From an uncultured Fidelibacterota bacterium (GTDB taxonomy: Bacteria; Fidelibacterota; UBA8477; JABMPR01): a stretch of DNA of 32,231 nucleotides. The stretch covers positions 1-32,231 of the forward strand of contig CALBFA010000078.1 of assembly GCA_937888365.1 (NCBI GenBank), given 5' to 3'. A model generated the notes under the pieces. It was not told the origin of the DNA. It saw nothing but the letters and a program-made list of their open reading frames with translations, and searched no databases. Below are positions 22,612-32,231 of this stretch, piece by piece (within the stretch, counting starts at the first letter, position 1; every line of letters begins with the position of its first letter). The translations under genes were made by a program, and so were the position numbers.

Positions 22612-23280
22612 TTATTGACTGATTTTACCCAATAAATATTCTGCATTTGTTCGATTATCTTTCGATATTTTTTTGTCCAATAGATCCTGCAAAATCGATT
22701 TTGATTCAGACATGTTGTTAGCGTTAAAATAGGATAATGCTGCAGAAATTTTTAAACCGTCTTGCATGTCGCCTTTGGTAATTTTTGCCGCCTTTAAATA
22801 CGTAGCAGCCGCGTCTTGAAACTGTTCTGCTCTAACATAGCATTCAGCTAATTTTGATGTAGCAGCGAGTTTTATGATAGGATCGGATACTGTATTTGAA
22901 ACCATTGTGAATAACTCTTTAGCCCCGTCAATGTCATTAGAATCTAATTTTGAAACACCCAAATAATACGGTGCCAGTTCGGCACCAGCAACGTCACCAT
23001 ATTCAGATACGACCATTTCAAGCTCTGAAATAACGTTAGCATTTGGATTATTGGCATAAGCGTTGAGTACTTTTGTGGTTTCTAGCATTGCTTCATTTTG
23101 TGTCGTGACGATGTTATTATTCCATACCCAGGCGATAAAAAGAATCGCAAATACGCCTCCTAAAATAATATAGAAGGGGTTTTTATATTTATCATATAAT
23201 TCTTTTCCTTCTTCAAGTGCTTCAAATAAAGGGTCTGATTTAAGTTCTTTTTTTGTTAATTTTTTCTTTGGTTTTAACAT
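22612..23280 (-). CDS. YfgM-like membrane-anchored TPR protein
   Basis: 222 residues. A basic N-terminus (KPKKKLTKKELK) is followed by one transmembrane helix (about residues 38-56 of this start) and then a periplasmic region of repeated helical hairpins resembling TPR units (YLGVSKLDSNDIDGAKELF; LAECYVRAEQFQDAAATYL; SAALSYFNANNMSESKSIL). This architecture is that of YfgM/TPR_21 proteins, which in E. coli act with PpiD at the Sec translocon; here that role is only inferred. An in-frame TTG at 23292 would add four residues, but its only Shine-Dalgarno candidate is one base away, so I prefer the ATG at 23280. It lies just downstream of tRNA-Arg with no terminator between. Confidence 0.8.
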   Translation of the reverse strand: MLKPKKKLTKKELKSDPLFEALEEGKELYDKYKNPFYIILGGVFAILFIAWVWNNNIVTTQNEAMLETTKVLNAYANNPNANVISELEMVVSEYGDVAGAELAPYYLGVSKLDSNDIDGAKELFTMVSNTVSDPIIKLAATSKLAECYVRAEQFQDAAATYLKAAKITKGDMQDGLKISAALSYFNANNMSESKSILQDLLDKKISKDNRTNAEYLLGKISQ

Positions 23281-23330
23281 GGTTCCACTCAATCTCTCAT
23301 ATAATTGTTAAATATTTGGCATTCTAATCG

Positions 23331-23404
<74 letters not shown>

Positions 23405-23432
23405 CAAATCGTTGCATTTTAAAAAGCCCGCG

Positions 23433-23460
23433 AATATAAGCGAACTCCCCTCGGAGACAA
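23433..23460 (-). promoter_or_regulatory. Predicted promoter of tRNA-Arg
   Basis: On the minus strand, -35 TTGTCT (23455-23460), 16-bp spacer, -10 TATATT (23433-23438), then the discriminator CGCGGGC. It is nearly identical in -10 and discriminator start (TTATATTCGC) to the tRNA-Ser promoter. Confidence 0.65.
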
Positions 23461-23492
23461 AAGATTTAGGAACAAAATAATGATATTTAGAA

Positions 23493-23576
23493 TCAATCCT
23501 GAAATAAAGAAACAAATTCGAATTTATGACCATCAAATAGGCCTTTATCACTTAATTTCAGATTTGGGATGACGAG
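23493..23576 (-). pseudogene. Remnant: C-terminal 27 codons of an adenine deaminase gene
   Basis: In a frame different from the overlapping pilB end, this stretch reads LVIPNLKLSDKGLFD, a short spacer, KFEFVSLFQD and stop. From memory, the pattern (L/P)VIP-x-(L/I)-(K/R)-(L/I)-(S/T)-D-K-G-(L)-x-D...KFE is how bacterial adenine deaminases (Ade) end. No start codon or upstream part of the gene is present: the frame runs back only a few codons to a point where the sequence becomes pilB. I read it as the 3' stump left by a deletion. Identity rests on a short motif, so confidence is moderate. Confidence 0.55.
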
Positions 23577-24283
23577 TCTGCTAAAATTTTTAATCTCGAT
23601 ATGAGGGGGTTCATGCTTTCTTTTGGAACGGTATAATATTGTTGCAATACACCGTCGACACGGAAGCGAATACGTACATCTTTTTCTCTAGGTTCAAAAT
23701 GGATGTCACTGGCGCCTACTTTGATGGCTTCACCAAAAAGTAAGTTTACCGCTGCGACAACTTCAGTATCTCCGCCAATTTCTTTTGATACAACGCGTGA
23801 GCGATCATCGACGGTTCCATCTTCATTTTGCGTATGTACAGCATATTTTGCTGCACTATAATACATATCAATAGCCTGTTCAATATCACTTTCGGTTGCT
23901 AGTATGATGTTGATTTCCATCCCCGTATCGAGGCTCAAGTCGTCAATAATTTCTAGATTCATCGGATCCGAGATGGCAATCGTTAAAGATTCGCCTAAGG
24001 CAAAAAGAGGCATGACTTTATTTTTACGTGCAAAATCTTCTTTAATATATTCAAGTATTTTTTGCTCAACTTCATAGACCATTAAATCAAGGGTTGGTAT
24101 GCCAAGTTGCTCACTAAGGATGTCCGTAAGATCGCGTTCACTTAAAAAGCCAAGAGCTAAAATCGCTTTCCCGAGATACATGCCATGAATGTCTTTATAT
24201 TCCAGCGCTTCTTCGAGTTGGTGCGAGTCGAGCTTCCCTGCATCGATTAATAATTGTCCTAGTTGTTTTTTCATTTCAGCCAT
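23558..24283 (-). pseudogene. pilB: Truncated type IV pilus assembly ATPase PilB (N-terminal part only)
   Basis: The 241-residue frame matches the first 40% of PilB/GspE, which is normally about 560-570 residues. The MshEN-type N-terminal domain (about 5-150) is complete, and the ATPase domain begins properly (ASDIHFEPREKDVRIRFRVDG, about 190-213; MNPLISRLKILA). It then switches to DSSSQI and stops, exactly where the family continues with DLDIAERRxPQDGR. Walker A, Asp box, Walker B and His box are absent, and no remnant of them occurs in any frame downstream. The lost part is replaced by an adenine deaminase tail. It is therefore almost certainly inactive as an extension motor. It starts 11 bp after pilD with AAGGA upstream. 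Confidence 0.85.
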
Positions 24284-24294
24284 GAATTTCGTCC

Positions 24295-25077
24295 TTAAAA
24301 AGCGACTCTAATGTACCAATCAATGATGTCTTGATAACACAAAATGCTTATGAATGTCCCGAATCCCATAAAGGGGCCAAAGGGTATTTTCTGACCAATC
24401 TCCAATTTCCCAAAAGGTAACAAAGCCAAAATAAATACAGATGCGCCTAAAAACGTCATCGCGACTGCAACAATACCCGCCTTCCATCCTAAAATGAGTC
24501 CGATTACAAAGGCGTATTTCACATCGCCCATTCCCAAACTTTCCTTTTTAAATACTTTTTCACCAAGGAATCCAATAATGTAAAATCCTAAACCCAGAGA
24601 AAAAGCTCCGATGAGTGCGGGAATTAACATGGTTACACCTTGACCGAAGTATAAAGGTAAAAGCGCAAATATTCCGAGTAACAGGAGGCCATTCGGAATG
24701 ATATAATGATCCATATCAATAAATGTGATGGCAATAATCAAAATCGTGAAATAAGCCATCCCAACAAATTGCCAATTGGGACCTAAAACATAAAATAATA
24801 AAGTGAGTAATAAGGCAGTTAACAGCTCGACACTGGGATATCTCAGAGAAATGTGCATCCCGCATGACGAGCACTTCCCTCTCAATAATAAATAACTAAG
24901 GATTGGGATATTTTCTTTGGCTGTAATTTGATGTCCACATTGAGGGCATTGGGATCGAGGCTTTACAATCGATTGTTCCAAAGGAACGCGATAAATAATA
25001 ACATTTAAAAAGCTGCCAATCGCGAGTCCGTAAACAAATACGAGTATGGCAAGGATTAGCATGTTATTGTCTATCAT
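24295..25077 (-). CDS. pilD: Type IV prepilin peptidase / N-methyltransferase
   Basis: 260 residues. This inner-membrane aspartyl protease cleaves the leader of prepilins and methylates the new N-terminus. The cytosolic zinc-type tetracysteine motif is complete (C44, C47, C69, C72), as are the catalytic aspartates in IDMDHYIIPN (D121/D123) and GMGDVKY (D185). About seven hydrophobic segments are seen. The start overlaps the stop of the receiver gene by 4 bp, so it is translationally coupled in the pilus operon. The prepilin genes it would act on are not in the window. Confidence 0.95.
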   Translation of the reverse strand: MIDNNMLILAILVFVYGLAIGSFLNVIIYRVPLEQSIVKPRSQCPQCGHQITAKENIPILSYLLLRGKCSSCGMHISLRYPSVELLTALLLTLLFYVLGPNWQFVGMAYFTILIIAITFIDMDHYIIPNGLLLLGIFALLPLYFGQGVTMLIPALIGAFSLGLGFYIIGFLGEKVFKKESLGMGDVKYAFVIGLILGWKAGIVAVAMTFLGASVFILALLPFGKLEIGQKIPFGPFMGFGTFISILCYQDIIDWYIRVAF

Positions 25078-25442
25078 TCAGCGACTAATTTTTTTATTGT
25101 TTCAACCAATGCAGGTGGGACGACAGGTTTTGTAAGGTAGAGTGTGGCGCCAGATGTTACCGCTAATTGACGATCTTCGTCAGAATCTTTTGCGGAAACA
25201 ATAATGATAGGCGTATCACGAAAAGATGCATCAAATTTTAGTAATCGACACACTTGGAAACCATCAAGTTTTGGCAACATTAAATCAAGCATAATTAAGT
25301 CCGGATGAATTTTTCGAGCTTCTTGCAAACCTGTCATGCCATCCGAAGCTACAAAAGTCTCAAAACCTTCCCGTTCTAAAAAAAGACGAATTGGGTCTGA
25401 GAAAAAACTCTCATCGTCAACAATTAAAATCTTTTTACCCAT
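25074..25442 (-). CDS. CheY-like single-domain response regulator
   Basis: 122 residues consisting only of a receiver domain. Acidic pocket DD (9-10), phospho-acceptor D53 in LIMLDLMLPKLDG, switch serine S83 and lysine K105 (TKP) are all present. No output domain follows, so it should act by protein-protein contact, like PilG/PilH in twitching motility. It sits between the pilU-like gene and pilD and overlaps pilD by 4 bp, pointing to control of pilus function. No partner kinase gene is in the window. Confidence 0.92.
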   Translation of the reverse strand: MGKKILIVDDESFFSDPIRLFLEREGFETFVASDGMTGLQEARKIHPDLIMLDLMLPKLDGFQVCRLLKFDASFRDTPIIIVSAKDSDEDRQLAVTSGATLYLTKPVVPPALVETIKKLVAE

Positions 25443-25463
25443 TAGGTTCTACCCACTTTCCTG

Positions 25464-26573
25464 TTAATCTTGTTCAATTAAATCCAATTCAATTTTCATC
25501 GTATACGTGTTTTTAGCAACTGTTCGGATTAATAATTTCAAATCTGTTGGATGATCAGCATATTGTACGGCATCCTCTTCAGAAATCAACTCACTTTTGA
25601 ATAATTTAAATAATGATTGGTCAAAACTAATCATTCCTTCAGAATTCGAATTTTCGATGGTGCGTTGTAGGAGTTCGATTTCACCTTTATGAATTAAATC
25701 TTTAACACGTGCACTGGATAATAAAATTTCCATTGATGCTTGTCGACCACCGCCAATGCCAGGTACGAGACGCTGTGCAACAATACCGTTAATATTTTGA
25801 CTGAGTTGTAATTTGACCATTTCATGCTGGATGGGTTCAAAAAAACTTAAAATACGTTCAATTGTCTGTGACGCTGTTTTAGCATGCAGTGTGCTCAATA
25901 CAAGATGTCCCGTTTCAGCAAAAGACAGCGCTGCGTTCATCGTTGCTTGGTCACGAATTTCTCCGATTAAAAGCATTGACGGCGCTTCTCGCAGTGCGCT
26001 TTTCAACGCGGCTTGGTAACTGGATGAATCCTGTCCAATTTCGCGTTGGTTTACGACACTTTTTTTATGGCGATGCAAAAATTCAATGGGGTCTTCTAAC
26101 GTCAATATGTGGCCACTTAAATTGCTATTCCTATAATCAACCAAAGAAGCCAGTGTCGTAGATTTTCCACTTCCTGTCCCACCAACAATGAGTACTAAAC
26201 CTCGTTTGGCAAGGGCAAGTTCACCAATTAAATCAGGTAAACCAAGTTCATGAAAACTACTAATTTTCTCAATAATTTGTCTCACGACAAAGGCATCAGA
26301 ATTGCGCTGTTTAAAATAATTTACTCTAAAGCGCCCCACATTGGGCAAACTGTAAGTAAAGTCCAGTTCTCTATCTATCTGAAATTTTTCAGATTGCTTG
26401 CTCGTAAGCATTTCAAGCTTCAGTTTTTCAAGTATTTTTGATGTAATGATATCTTTTTCTAATGGTACCGTCTCCCCAGAAATATTCATCATTGGGTAAG
26501 CACCCATTGAGATATACAAATCGGAGGCATTGACCTCAACCATAACATTTAATAATTCTTCAATACTATACAT
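25464..26573 (-). CDS. PilU-like type IV pilus retraction ATPase paralogue
   Basis: 369 residues. A PilT/VirB11-family hexameric ATPase at the cytoplasmic face of the pilus machine. Walker A GGTGSGKST (131-139), Asp box TLEDPIEF, Walker B MLLIGEIRD and His box TGHLVLSTLHA are all intact. The sequence REAPSMLLIGEIRD is closer to PilU than PilT (REDPDVIVVGEMRD in the neighbour), and the C-terminal AIRNLIRE-type motif is replaced by VKDLIHKGE. In species with both, PilU assists PilT in forceful retraction. It starts four bases after pilT ends. The call as a PilT-like ATPase is sure; PilU is likely. Confidence 0.88.
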   Translation of the reverse strand: MYSIEELLNVMVEVNASDLYISMGAYPMMNISGETVPLEKDIITSKILEKLKLEMLTSKQSEKFQIDRELDFTYSLPNVGRFRVNYFKQRNSDAFVVRQIIEKISSFHELGLPDLIGELALAKRGLVLIVGGTGSGKSTTLASLVDYRNSNLSGHILTLEDPIEFLHRHKKSVVNQREIGQDSSSYQAALKSALREAPSMLLIGEIRDQATMNAALSFAETGHLVLSTLHAKTASQTIERILSFFEPIQHEMVKLQLSQNINGIVAQRLVPGIGGGRQASMEILLSSARVKDLIHKGEIELLQRTIENSNSEGMISFDQSLFKLFKSELISEEDAVQYADHPTDLKLLIRTVAKNTYTMKIELDLIEQD

Positions 26574-26577
26574 AATT

Positions 26578-27633
26578 CTATATACTGTTTATTGCTTTTC
26601 GCAATTCTTCATTATTACCCGCAACACTTAAAATGCTATTTTTTTCTACGATCCCTTCCACAATTAATCGATGGAAATGTTGTTCCATTGTTTGCATACC
26701 GAGTCTAGAACTTGTTTGCATCACCGATGCGAGCTGATAAGTTTTACTTTCTCTAATTAAGTTTCCAACGGCGGGATTTCCGATTAAAACCTCAAAGGCT
26801 GCAACACGACCCCCACCAATTTTTGGCAGCAACACTTGCGATATAACGCCAGCAACGGACTCGCTAAGCATAATTCGAATTTGGGATTGTCGATCGCTTG
26901 GATATTGGTCGATAATGCGATCAATCGTTTTCGGTGCGCTCATTGTGTGTAATGTGCCAAAAACCAAGTGTCCTGTTTCAGCGGCAGTTATAGCGAGGGA
27001 CGTTGTTTCTAAGTCTCTCATTTCACCCACAACAATAACATCAGGATCTTCTCGTAAAGCTGAACGTAAAGCCTTCGAAAAAGACTTCGAATTTGTCCCT
27101 ATTTCTCTATGATTCACGAGGGATTTTTTACTTTTATGAATGTATTCCAAAGGATCTTCCAGTGTGATGATATGCCGATGCGAGTGTGAGTTGATATAAT
27201 CAATGATTGTACTTAAAGTCGTTGATTTCCCGCTTCCCGTTGGGCCAGTAACCAAAATTAGCCCTTTATCCATATTGGCTAAATCTTTGAAAGATTCAGG
27301 CAATTGTAACTCTTCAAAAGAATAAATTCGGCTTGAGATTGCTCTTAATACGGCTGTATCGCCATAAAAACCTTGAAAGACATTGACACGAAAACGACCA
27401 ATGCCCAAAAAATCATAAGCAAAGTCAATTTCTTTTTCTTCCTCATAAATTTTACGTTCATAATCATTCATAATATCATATATGAGTAAATGAACATCTT
27501 CAGGGTTAAGACTGGGTAGTTTTGTCCGGCGCATTATACCGTCAACCCTAACAATGGGAGGAGAATTCGGACTTAAGTGTAAATCCGATGCATCCTGTTC
27601 TTTCATGAAATTAAGAAGATCAAATATTTCCAT
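26578..27633 (-). CDS. pilT: Type IV pilus retraction ATPase PilT
   Basis: 351 residues, typical PilT length. It powers pilus depolymerisation for twitching motility. Walker A GPTGSGKST (130-138), Asp box TLEDPLEY, Walker B VIVVGEMRD and His box ETGHLVFGTLHT are intact, and the C-terminal VGNLIRESK matches the AIRNLIRE retraction motif. It starts eight bases after the secretin stop, with GGTGGAAA about 14 bases from the ATG, so coupling from the secretin gene is likely. Confidence 0.94.
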   Translation of the reverse strand: MEIFDLLNFMKEQDASDLHLSPNSPPIVRVDGIMRRTKLPSLNPEDVHLLIYDIMNDYERKIYEEEKEIDFAYDFLGIGRFRVNVFQGFYGDTAVLRAISSRIYSFEELQLPESFKDLANMDKGLILVTGPTGSGKSTTLSTIIDYINSHSHRHIITLEDPLEYIHKSKKSLVNHREIGTNSKSFSKALRSALREDPDVIVVGEMRDLETTSLAITAAETGHLVFGTLHTMSAPKTIDRIIDQYPSDRQSQIRIMLSESVAGVISQVLLPKIGGGRVAAFEVLIGNPAVGNLIRESKTYQLASVMQTSSRLGMQTMEQHFHRLIVEGIVEKNSILSVAGNNEELRKAINSI

Positions 27634-27641
27634 AAACTATA

Positions 27642-29420
27642 TTACTTTCCACCTACGATTGTTGGAGTGATAAAAATGAGAAGCTCTCTTTTTTCGACGG
27701 CTGTTGAAGAATGTGAAAAGAACTTTTTGATATAAGGTATCCTTCCGAGAAATGGAATTCTATTCTCAGTTTGAATAAATTGATCGAAAATTAATCCACC
27801 AATCAATAATGTATGTCCATTTTCGACTGTGACTTTTGTATTGGTCGAACGTTCAGAAATAATGGGGCGATCCGCATTAGGACCAGCGAACCCGATTAAT
27901 GCTTGAACGACAGCATTTAAATCGAGGGCAATATAAGTCCCATTATTAACTTTGGGTTTTACGTTTAACGTAATATCAATATCCTGGTCTTCAAATGTGA
28001 TAGCTTGACTGCCAAACATGCTACCTTCTGGTTGCGGTACTGCAATGGGATACTTCGTTCCCGTTTTTACCGAAGCCCAGGTATTTTCAGTTGTGGTTAC
28101 TTGAGGTTCTTGAATGAGACGAGTTTCATTATCTGACGCTAAAACATCTAATAGCATATTAAAAACAGGCGTCGTCAAGGTGGCAACTCGCATATCTTTC
28201 ATAAGCCAGCCAAGACCCAGAGAAGTGGCGCTTGTAGTTGTACCATCAGCGTTTGTGGTTGTACCGGATACATCTGTTGGTCCTGAGATTGTTGCTCGTA
28301 AGTCCCAATTGATGCCTAATCTTTCGTCGGAACTGAGTTTTGCCTCAATAAATTTTACAGCAATGTTGACTTGAATAACGGGTTGATCTAAAGTCTCTAT
28401 CACTTCTTCAATATTTTCAAAATTATAGACATTATCTGTAATAATAAGGTGATCAGACGTTACTTCTTGTTCGCTTGTACCACCTGCACTCGCACCTGTT
28501 CCACCTGTAGCTGCTCCACCTCCAGTAGCGCCTCCGCCTGCTGCACCTCCACCGAGTGCACCCAGTAAGCCACCTGCCGCTTGTTGTCCAGCAGGGCTAG
28601 CTGCTGCTGCACCTCCACCCGAGCCACCCGATGTACCCGTTGAAACGGGTGAAAATACTTGAATTTGACCTTTTGGTGATAATACGTTCAACAAAGCATT
28701 TTGAATGGATTCGGCAGATACATATTCAACTTTATAAATGCGCGTACTGAGTTCTCCTGCCATTTCTTCATCTTTTGGCTTTATAACAATAATATTATCT
28801 TGTATAAACCAACTATAGCCATTTACCTTTAAAATAGCATCCAAAGCGGTTCCTAAATTTACTTTGGATAGTGCGACAGTAATGCGACCTTCAACTTTTT
28901 GACCTGCGATAATATTGAGGCTATGTTGATTGGCCAATAATCTCAAAAGATCAATCATTTGTGCATCTTTGAAGTTTAATGATACTTTCTTATTTAATAA
29001 TTCCATTTTGGGGAAAGAATGAATTTTAATATTTTGTTTTTTTATGGGAATCCATGAAACCTGCAAATCAATCCCATCAGGAGACGTTATCTCATATTGA
29101 GGCATGATATCAAAATATAGAGATATTTCTAAATGATTATTTACTTCATCAATTGATACTCTATATAAAGGGTCGAGTTGGAATTGCTTAATATAGTTGC
29201 CCCAAAAAGAACTCGTTTTTTTCACGATTAATAATAATCTTGGTGGACTTTGAGTTGCAATTGCCTCATATTCAACTTCACCCGTAAAGGCAAGAGTCAC
29301 CCCATTTTCATGAGGTGTATTATAAGGATAAATAGTCTCCAATACCGGAGAGTCGGCAAATAGATTCACCGAAAAGATTAAAGACATCCCCATTAAAACT
29401 AAAATATATTTATTCTTCAA
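27642..29420 (-). CDS. pilQ: Type IV pilus secretin PilQ
   Basis: 592 residues. It forms the outer-membrane gate through which the pilus passes. A clear signal peptide (1-22, MKNKYILVLMGMSLIFSVNLFA's stretch of hydrophobics ending in FA) is followed by an AMIN-like beta domain (about 25-125), an STN/N0 domain (about 145-205), an N1-type domain (220-255) and a Gly/Ala/Ser/Thr-rich linker (261-315). The secretin beta-barrel domain (about 335-590) ends with the conserved RIPFLGRIPYIKKFF and ELLIFITPTIV. It overlaps pilP by 11 bp. PilQ rather than GspD is favoured by the pilMNOP and pilT context. Confidence 0.93.
   Translation of the reverse strand: MKNKYILVLMGMSLIFSVNLFADSPVLETIYPYNTPHENGVTLAFTGEVEYEAIATQSPPRLLLIVKKTSSFWGNYIKQFQLDPLYRVSIDEVNNHLEISLYFDIMPQYEITSPDGIDLQVSWIPIKKQNIKIHSFPKMELLNKKVSLNFKDAQMIDLLRLLANQHSLNIIAGQKVEGRITVALSKVNLGTALDAILKVNGYSWFIQDNIIVIKPKDEEMAGELSTRIYKVEYVSAESIQNALLNVLSPKGQIQVFSPVSTGTSGGSGGGAAAASPAGQQAAGGLLGALGGGAAGGGATGGGAATGGTGASAGGTSEQEVTSDHLIITDNVYNFENIEEVIETLDQPVIQVNIAVKFIEAKLSSDERLGINWDLRATISGPTDVSGTTTNADGTTTSATSLGLGWLMKDMRVATLTTPVFNMLLDVLASDNETRLIQEPQVTTTENTWASVKTGTKYPIAVPQPEGSMFGSQAITFEDQDIDITLNVKPKVNNGTYIALDLNAVVQALIGFAGPNADRPIISERSTNTKVTVENGHTLLIGGLIFDQFIQTENRIPFLGRIPYIKKFFSHSSTAVEKRELLIFITPTIVGGK
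28476..28640 (-). repeat. Gly/Ala-rich low-complexity tract within pilQ
   Basis: Fifty-five codons (residues 261-315) encode almost only Gly, Ala, Ser, Thr and a few Gln and Leu. The DNA is imperfectly repetitive (variants of GGTGGAGG and GCAGCA) and clearly more GC-rich than its surroundings. It forms a flexible linker between the periplasmic and barrel domains. Confidence 0.8.
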
Positions 29421-29904
29421 GCGTTAACCTCACAACTTTCACTCCCTTTTTTAAATCCACATATGTTTCAGAAATATGAGCGATTGAATAGCCATTTACT
29501 TGGCCGCCAAGCTTTAATATATTCCCGTTAATAAGTACTATTTTTGAATCTCCTGAAACTGATATGCCGTTTAAAACAAGTGAGGTCTCATTCGTTCCAG
29601 GAATTTTGTCACCAAATAATGAGCCGAGACCGCTACTTTTAATCGTGTCACTATTAAGATAAAAAAAAGGATCTTTTGACCAATTCCCTACCCAAATAAA
29701 AGGTTCTGCCTTTTGATTAACGTACTGGTCTAAATTATTTTTTGAAATGAGCGATTCTTTTATCTCTTGTTTAGGTTTTGTAATCGCATCACTCACATCA
29801 GCTAAAAACAAATTAAAACCACCTTGATCAAAGAAAAACACAGTCGCAATCACAATCAATACCACGACCATAATGATAACTCTTTTCTTTTCGTTTTTAT
29901 CCAC
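29410..29904 (-). CDS. PilP-like pilus alignment protein
   Basis: 164 residues. A single N-terminal transmembrane helix (about 9-26) is followed by a periplasmic part ending in a small beta domain: LVLNGISVSGDSKIVLINGN, then GGQVNGYSIAHISETYVDLKKG. This is the pattern of PilP and of the GspC homology region, which links the inner-membrane PilMNO complex to the secretin. Unlike Pseudomonas PilP it has no lipobox; it is anchored by the helix. It overlaps pilO by 1 bp and pilQ by 11 bp. Placement and size strongly support the role. Confidence 0.8.
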   Translation of the reverse strand: MDKNEKKRVIIMVVVLIVIATVFFFDQGGFNLFLADVSDAITKPKQEIKESLISKNNLDQYVNQKAEPFIWVGNWSKDPFFYLNSDTIKSSGLGSLFGDKIPGTNETSLVLNGISVSGDSKIVLINGNILKLGGQVNGYSIAHISETYVDLKKGVKVVRLTLEE

Positions 29905-30491
29905 TATTTACCTTTTATTTCTTCTAAGTAAATGTACGAAAAGAGAACTAAGTCACTTGAAATACGTCCGTCTTTTTCCAACATAGTATTCATCTTAATT
30001 TTTCCAATATTAAGGGCAGATGGAATGGTTTCTAACGACTCCAAAAAAGCCCCGATTTTGAGGAAATCACCCTTAATTCTACAGTGTATTGGATAACGCT
30101 CAATATGCTTACCCGTTGTTTCTAAAATACTTTTTATAGCTGGAAAAGAATCTTCCATTTCAGGTGCGATACCCATGATTTCAACTTCATTTTTTTCGGC
30201 CAGAACTTTTATAAGTTGAAGTATTTCAACAAAATTATCACGTGTGGCGACGACATATTTCAAAGAATCGAAGTTTACCAGCTCTTCCTCATATTTTTGC
30301 TTAACTTCATCAAAATTGACATTGACGGCATTGATTTCTAGAAATTTATCTTTAATTTTGTTAAGATCATCCTCTAGGATGATTTCCTCGGTTCCGTACA
30401 CAGAGAATTCAATATAACCCCATCCTCCAGTAAGCATTAAACCGATTAATATCAAAGATATAAACATTATTTGAGCGGGGACTAATTTCAT
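29904..30491 (-). CDS. PilO-like pilus alignment protein
   Basis: 195 residues. One N-terminal transmembrane helix (about 8-26), a coiled-coil segment (about 40-80, EEIILEDDLNKIKDKF and on), and a ferredoxin-like periplasmic domain with YPIHCRIKGDFLKIGAFLESLETIPSALNIGKI's typical PilO pattern (RxKGxxxxxxxFLxxLE). PilO dimerises with PilN to align the inner and outer parts of the machine. It overlaps the upstream pilMN gene by 4 bp and pilP by 1 bp. Function assigned from domain pattern and gene order. Confidence 0.82.
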   Translation of the reverse strand: MKLVPAQIMFISLILIGLMLTGGWGYIEFSVYGTEEIILEDDLNKIKDKFLEINAVNVNFDEVKQKYEEELVNFDSLKYVVATRDNFVEILQLIKVLAEKNEVEIMGIAPEMEDSFPAIKSILETTGKHIERYPIHCRIKGDFLKIGAFLESLETIPSALNIGKIKMNTMLEKDGRISSDLVLFSYIYLEEIKGK

Positions 30492-32224
30492 AAGCTTAAT
30501 ATCAATTTAAAAAAGAGTCGCTCTGATAAAGATTTTTCCACATCCTGCATATCCAGTTCAACACGTCGAAATAATTTTGTTTGTTCAAAATTAAGTTGAA
30601 GATTTGCGATATGTATATCTGCAACTGTCAAATCAGAATCTACAAAACCTGTTAAATAAATAATATTTTCCGTTTCAACACCACCGGTTCCACTCCCACC
30701 TAATATTCTTTTATCAATATCCAAAGCCGTAAATTTTATATCTTTTGAAGGTACTTCAGATATTAATTTAAGGATTTCAACGATATTATTCGATTCAATA
30801 TTGTCATTATTTAGGAATGTTTGAAATCCTGTTAATACTTTAAGGTCGTTTCTAAAAACAAAGTAATCTTTGGCTTTCTCAGACATATTTGTCCAGGCAT
30901 TTTCTTGTTCCTGAATTTGGAATTCAATACTTTTAATATTTTGCTGTGAATAGTACATGGTAAGCCCGGCTATTGGCATAATAAAGACTAATAATATTCC
31001 TACTAATTTTGATAAATAAGTAAAATGGTAGTTCTTTTTAGTAGATTCAGGTAAAATATTTAGATTTTTTAATTGATCAATCATCAAAGCCAAATTGGGC
31101 GTTATATTAAGTAACCATTCGTGTCCGACCCTTTTTTCTTCATTCCCAGAAAAAAAGTCAATTCGCGCTGGATGTAATATTTTGGTCGTCAGGCTCAAAT
31201 TATCAGCCAGCGTTTCTGGTAATCCTGGTATTTTGCCTCCTATACCAGACACATAAATAGTATCCCAGTTGATTTTTGGATATTGCTTTTTAAAAAATGT
31301 CTGAGATCGATTCATTTCACTGGTAATTCGCTCAATAGCAGGCCTTAAAAATATTGTTACTTTGTAGAGACTTATTTTATACTCAGATATCATACCTTCT
31401 GAATTTTCAGGAATTCCATAATTGAATAAAATATTGTTAGCCATTTCATCATTTATTTCTACGACACCTTCTGGAGAAACGACCCTTTGTTTCAAAGCTT
31501 TGCGTATATCATTTACACCTATTGGAATCTCTCGAGTAAAAACGAGGACTCGATTGTAAATAACAACAATAATAGTTTGGTTGTCTCCCATATGTGCAAC
31601 GACATGACATCCCGATTTTTTATCAGGATAATTATGTACGAATAATTTCCATAACATTATTGGGAGTGTACTAATATTTCGTAAATGAAGTTTATGTTTT
31701 TTAAAGATTTTTTGATACTCTCCAATAATTGATGTATCACCCATAGCGATAATAATTTGCTTTGAAACATTTTCAAGTTCAGAATTTTTTAACATATAGC
31801 TAGTGTTGGTGTTGTCACTCCCAAAAGCTAAGTTTTTTGCGAGATTCCACTGAATAAATTCGTCTAGCTCTTTACCCTTTAACTCCGGAGCATTAAACAT
31901 TTGAGTTTTGACGGGGATGTCATCACCATAATAAGAGACACTTGAATTTGCTAGTTTTTTGCCATCCGTACATTGAGTCAGTACAAAATCGAGTACCTCT
32001 TTTGGGTCATTGTATATGATACCATCAACTTTTAGAGGTATCGGATATTCTTCACATCTTTCAATATACATACCCGAAAATGTCATCGTAATCTCAAGAA
32101 AACGAAAAGATGATTTGCCTTGATATATTGAAATCTTGGAGAGACTTTCATTGAAAAAGTTAAATAGATATCTTTCTATTTTTGGGAGTGTCAAAATAAC
32201 TGGGTCTCTGTTTAAGACTTCCAA
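30488..32224 (-). CDS. PilM-PilN fusion protein (5' end may extend beyond window)
   Basis: At least 578 residues. Residues about 30-395 resemble the actin-like PilM/GspL ATPase fold (KISIYQGKSSFRFLEI at the first strand, AMGDTSIIGEYQKIF, VVAHMGDNQTIIVVIYN, and IYVSGIGGKIPGLPETLA near the C-terminus of the fold). A transmembrane helix at about 405-427 is followed by a PilN-like coiled coil and periplasmic domain (430-578). PilM and PilN are separate, interacting proteins in most species; here they are one chain. The first in-frame start is the TTG at 32224, but no stop precedes it in the visible bases and no ribosome binding site is seen, so the true start may lie outside the window. Confidence 0.82.
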   Translation of the reverse strand: MEVLNRDPVILTLPKIERYLFNFFNESLSKISIYQGKSSFRFLEITMTFSGMYIERCEEYPIPLKVDGIIYNDPKEVLDFVLTQCTDGKKLANSSVSYYGDDIPVKTQMFNAPELKGKELDEFIQWNLAKNLAFGSDNTNTSYMLKNSELENVSKQIIIAMGDTSIIGEYQKIFKKHKLHLRNISTLPIMLWKLFVHNYPDKKSGCHVVAHMGDNQTIIVVIYNRVLVFTREIPIGVNDIRKALKQRVVSPEGVVEINDEMANNILFNYGIPENSEGMISEYKISLYKVTIFLRPAIERITSEMNRSQTFFKKQYPKINWDTIYVSGIGGKIPGLPETLADNLSLTTKILHPARIDFFSGNEEKRVGHEWLLNITPNLALMIDQLKNLNILPESTKKNYHFTYLSKLVGILLVFIMPIAGLTMYYSQQNIKSIEFQIQEQENAWTNMSEKAKDYFVFRNDLKVLTGFQTFLNNDNIESNNIVEILKLISEVPSKDIKFTALDIDKRILGGSGTGGVETENIIYLTGFVDSDLTVADIHIANLQLNFEQTKLFRRVELDMQDVEKSLSERLFFKLILSL

Positions 32225-32231
32225 AGGTATT

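Follow-up and report, generated by a model that had tools for sequence, protein, structure and literature searches.

The window analysed here, a whole contig of 32,231 bases, contains a junction between pilB and ade, an adenine deaminase gene (Table 1). It probably arose through one deletion, the ends of which had hardly any homology, and which joined codon 236 of pilB to ade at the 27th codon from its stop. The ade gene would have had the same direction as pilB and a place upstream of the tRNA-Arg-nusA-infB operon. The window belongs to a 2.53 Mb draft genome of 110 contigs, which is 95% complete with 0.17% contamination, about 5% of the genome being absent from the assembly. It was compared with 19 genomes of the same family and 3 of the same order, none of them of the same genus. 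Among named relatives, those nearest in PilB are MAGs labelled Bacteroidetes and Candidatus Neomarinimicrobiota, which hints at a Marinimicrobia-like identity. A literature search recovered no paper on this pilB/ade join.

Table 1. Features around the pilB/ade junction (positions in the window)
Feature	Position	Strand	Basis and remarks
TPR_21 protein gene	22612..23292	-	Pfam
tRNA-Arg (CCT), intact	23330..23404	-	ARAGORN
Promoter region of the tRNA-Arg operon (AAATC...TTGT...TTATATT.G.G.GCTTTTT)	23405..23468	-	Conservation seen in some family and order members; 17 upstream regions compared
ade tail: last 27 codons and stop	23493..23576	-	PF13382; own-genome match with a relative's Ade; C-termini of relatives
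Last part of the truncated pilB ORF, out of frame	23558..23575	-	Translates ade sequence as SSSQI and a stop; ORF list, sequence
Junction	23576..23577	-	Parents have no more than 1-2 bp in common; comparison with relatives' pilB and ade DNA
pilB remnant	23576..24283	-	Codons 1-236: MshEN domain and start of T2SSE domain; Pfam, relatives of 550-556 aa
pilD (prepilin peptidase), intact	24295..25077	-	Only A24_N_bact gene found in the genome
Upstream pilus cluster, intact	25074..32230	-	Response regulator, two PilT-like ATPases, secretin, PilO-/PilN-like genes, PilM (reaches contig end)

The pilB ORF (24283-23558, minus strand) encodes 241 aa, in which Pfam recognizes an MshEN domain at residues 60-145 (E 3e-20) and just positions 5-69 of the 370 of the T2SSE domain. 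Homology to PilB is unbroken up to codon 236 (...ISRLKILAD, last base 23576), with 48-61% identity to the closest relatives through this codon, and there is none beyond it; PilB of relatives continues from the same point with MDIAESRRPQDGR. The coordinates of the original prediction, which had the homology end after ISRLKILA, are correct to within 1-2 bases. Where no contig end interrupts the gene, close relatives have a full-length pilB of about 550 aa (550-556), of which the remnant represents the first 43%. The Walker A P-loop (GPTGSGKT), which begins at residue 311-317 in relatives, is absent from the stub with its truncation at 236, and hence the stub would be unable to hydrolyse ATP. Automated annotation would call the 241-aa product 'PilB', yet it cannot be expected to act as an ATPase.

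Downstream of the break, 23576-23496 (minus strand) encodes LVIPNLKLSDKGLFDGHKFEFVSLFQD in another frame, followed by a stop codon at 23495-23493. This tail had been proposed to be the C-terminus of an adenine deaminase, and it proves to be one: 1) A search against all of Pfam matched it, as anticipated, to the extreme end of PF13382 (positions 151-169 of the 169 in the profile, E 8.2e-4), although the 19.3 bits of this match lie below the curated cut-off of 27, as is expected for 27 residues. 2) The full-length Ade of a family relative, used as a query against the whole genome, found the tail as its sole match (E 2.4e-5). 3) The ade genes of the family (n=16) have the C-terminus LLVIPDIKLSDKGLFDG..F.F...F and stop at about the same position as the tail, which is identical to the family form LLVIPDIKLSDKGLFDGxxFxFxxxF at 15-18 of the first 21 residues. 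Full-length ade is present in most relatives. Differences between the tail and the DNA of 16 relatives number 77, 15 and 205 at first, second and third codon positions, respectively, and this excess at third positions suggests that the tail spent most of its past within a working gene. The last 65 codons of the pilB remnant likewise show normal constraint. As both remnants look constrained, the deletion is most likely fairly recent. Both genes are dead, the pilB stub for want of a P-loop and the ade tail because it is out of frame and lacks its own start. The same window also carries an intact gene for adenosine deaminase (PF00962; 9744-10796, plus strand), an enzyme distinct from the lost adenine deaminase.

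The two sides of the join derive from separate genes, each of them intact in relatives, and both remnants point the same way, as the original prediction had it. A frameshift or a point nonsense mutation is ruled out, given that the DNA downstream is that of ade and not of pilB. At the join the pilB DNA of relatives reads GC(A/T/C)GA(C/T)ATGGAT as against GCAGAC, then the junction, then TCGTCATC in the window, and the ade DNA of the family resembles GCNCTNCTCGTCATCCC. We found neither a second copy of the join sequence nor a long repeat in the genome, and with no repeat at the join a repeat-mediated deletion can be dismissed. The GC content is 0.37 on either side, and the tetranucleotide composition of both sides fits the other contigs of the genome.

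What lay beyond the break on each parent gene is absent from the assembly. The rest of PilB had been reported as missing in every frame, and the cognate 3' part of pilB was not found anywhere in the genome, the best match being a 47% paralogue on another contig (C101). In relatives a sigma-54 regulator, pilC and pseudopilins come directly after pilB. For the cognate pilC we recovered just a 29% paralogue, adjoining the C101 pilB; the two pseudopilins of the cluster gave no match in the genome, and its sigma-54 regulators match that of the cluster essentially only over general domains. There is no PF13382 domain elsewhere in the genome and no other piece of ade was found. This absence from a 95%-complete genome of the missing parts of both genes and of the genes after pilB supports the predicted deletion.

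Among the alternatives, the one that survives best, unlikely though we consider it, is an assembly or library artefact, in which a chimeric read or a misjoined contig fused two unlinked places, possibly from two strains. In its favour, the draft genome is split into 110 contigs and relatives show no linkage of pilB and ade; the remainder of both genes would also be missing if their other halves had gone unassembled or unbinned. However, a simple misjoin should leave both missing halves as the ends of other contigs, and neither is present, while the composition of both sides is that of the genome. Further, with at most 1-2 bp in common the join offers no repeat on which a k-mer assembler could go astray, and an artefact would therefore require chimeric molecules; because of this minimal overlap and the even composition, a misjoin driven by repeats appears unlikely.

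The region to the right of the join bears on how ade came to lie there. The family conserves the order tRNA-Arg (CCT), TPR gene, a gene for a 150-aa protein, nusA and infB. What varies is the DNA upstream of the tRNA-Arg promoter: the sister genus has F17/F16 there, the sister family a different gene and the window the ade tail. The family gene F17 stands immediately before tRNA-Arg in the sister genus but sits on a different contig in the window's genome (C96; L101:6321-7013), and hence other rearrangements have occurred too. The order pilB...ade-tRNA-Arg, which the original prediction had looked for in relatives, was found in none of those inspected: no relative examined has ade adjoining tRNA-Arg or near pilB, and a search of 245 genomes of the phylum never placed ade and the TPR gene on one contig among the matches listed. 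The placement of ade before tRNA-Arg seems confined to the lineage of the window, and on this account a lineage-specific gene order would have been needed before the deletion.

These rearrangements also allow a reading slightly less probable than an artefact, namely that the join is real but marks the breakpoint of an inversion or translocation, its reciprocal halves having later been lost or lying in unassembled parts. The variation between genera upstream of tRNA-Arg and the separate location of F17 are in keeping with it, but the loss of both reciprocal halves, neither of which was found, requires an extra step. That the short PilB is instead a functional, naturally short MshEN-type protein with only a chance resemblance to ade in its wake is hardly credible, in spite of its whole MshEN domain and open ORF, as all close relatives with an uncut gene encode at least 550 aa, the ade match is significant and the stop sits where ade genes end.

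Under the favoured deletion, a lineage-specific rearrangement would first have placed ade before tRNA-Arg, in line with pilB. The deletion would then have taken the PilB ATPase core and about 95% of ade, presumably along with the sigma-54 regulator, pilC and the pseudopilins, while sparing the tRNA-Arg promoter and the pilus genes upstream of pilB. Given an ancestor with the family's gene order, of the order of 10 kb would have been removed. That pilB and ade formerly stood in line on a single chromosome is our inference, as are the extent and mechanism of the deletion. A single event probably destroyed an adenine deaminase gene and half a pilus cluster.

In the remaining half, the genes from the secretin to pilB are arranged as in relatives of the family. 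The genome also encodes a second, apparently complete type IV pilus cluster (C101:76001-96000) with PilM, N/O-like genes, a secretin, a PilB of 570 aa, PilC, PilT and pseudopilins, adjoining ftsA- and ftsZ-like genes. Most family members have two or three A24_N_bact genes as against the one found here, and it is plausible that the upstream pilus genes were kept since the second system needs the PilD of the window. More tentatively, and with some doubt on our part, the lineage might have stripped one of its two pilus systems of extension motor, platform and pseudopilins, the upstream half being retained because PilD, and perhaps the secretin and retraction ATPases, now serve the other.

The pilB closest to that of the window (59-61% identity) comes from a genome of another family (G039), where it lies on a contig of 11.6 kb (C60), whereas same-family copies show only about 50%; lateral transfer or a binning error might account for this. 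G039 lacks a full-length second PilT-like gene. A chimera of two organisms, which this closeness had brought to mind, was rejected, as family and order members are equally close or closer for the other genes of the cluster and the composition fits the window's genome.

Compared with known systems, the stub is through its first 236 residues an ordinary member of the PilB/GspE-type assembly ATPases (T2SSE with an MshEN N-terminus), from which it differs in having neither ATPase core nor P-loop. Similarly, the last 27 codons and stop match the family C-terminus of Ade (the PF13382 C-terminal domain), but the amidohydrolase core and all other than profile positions 151-169 of 169 are gone, and no enzyme could be expressed. 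The join offers a clear-cut case of reductive deletion among uncultured bacteria and opens no large question. With an ancestral gene order that is deduced and was seen in none of the relatives examined, it resembles illegitimate gene-fusing deletions, with short or no homology, in three respects: its pieces are co-directional, they have almost no sequence in common where they meet, and the intervening genes are gone.
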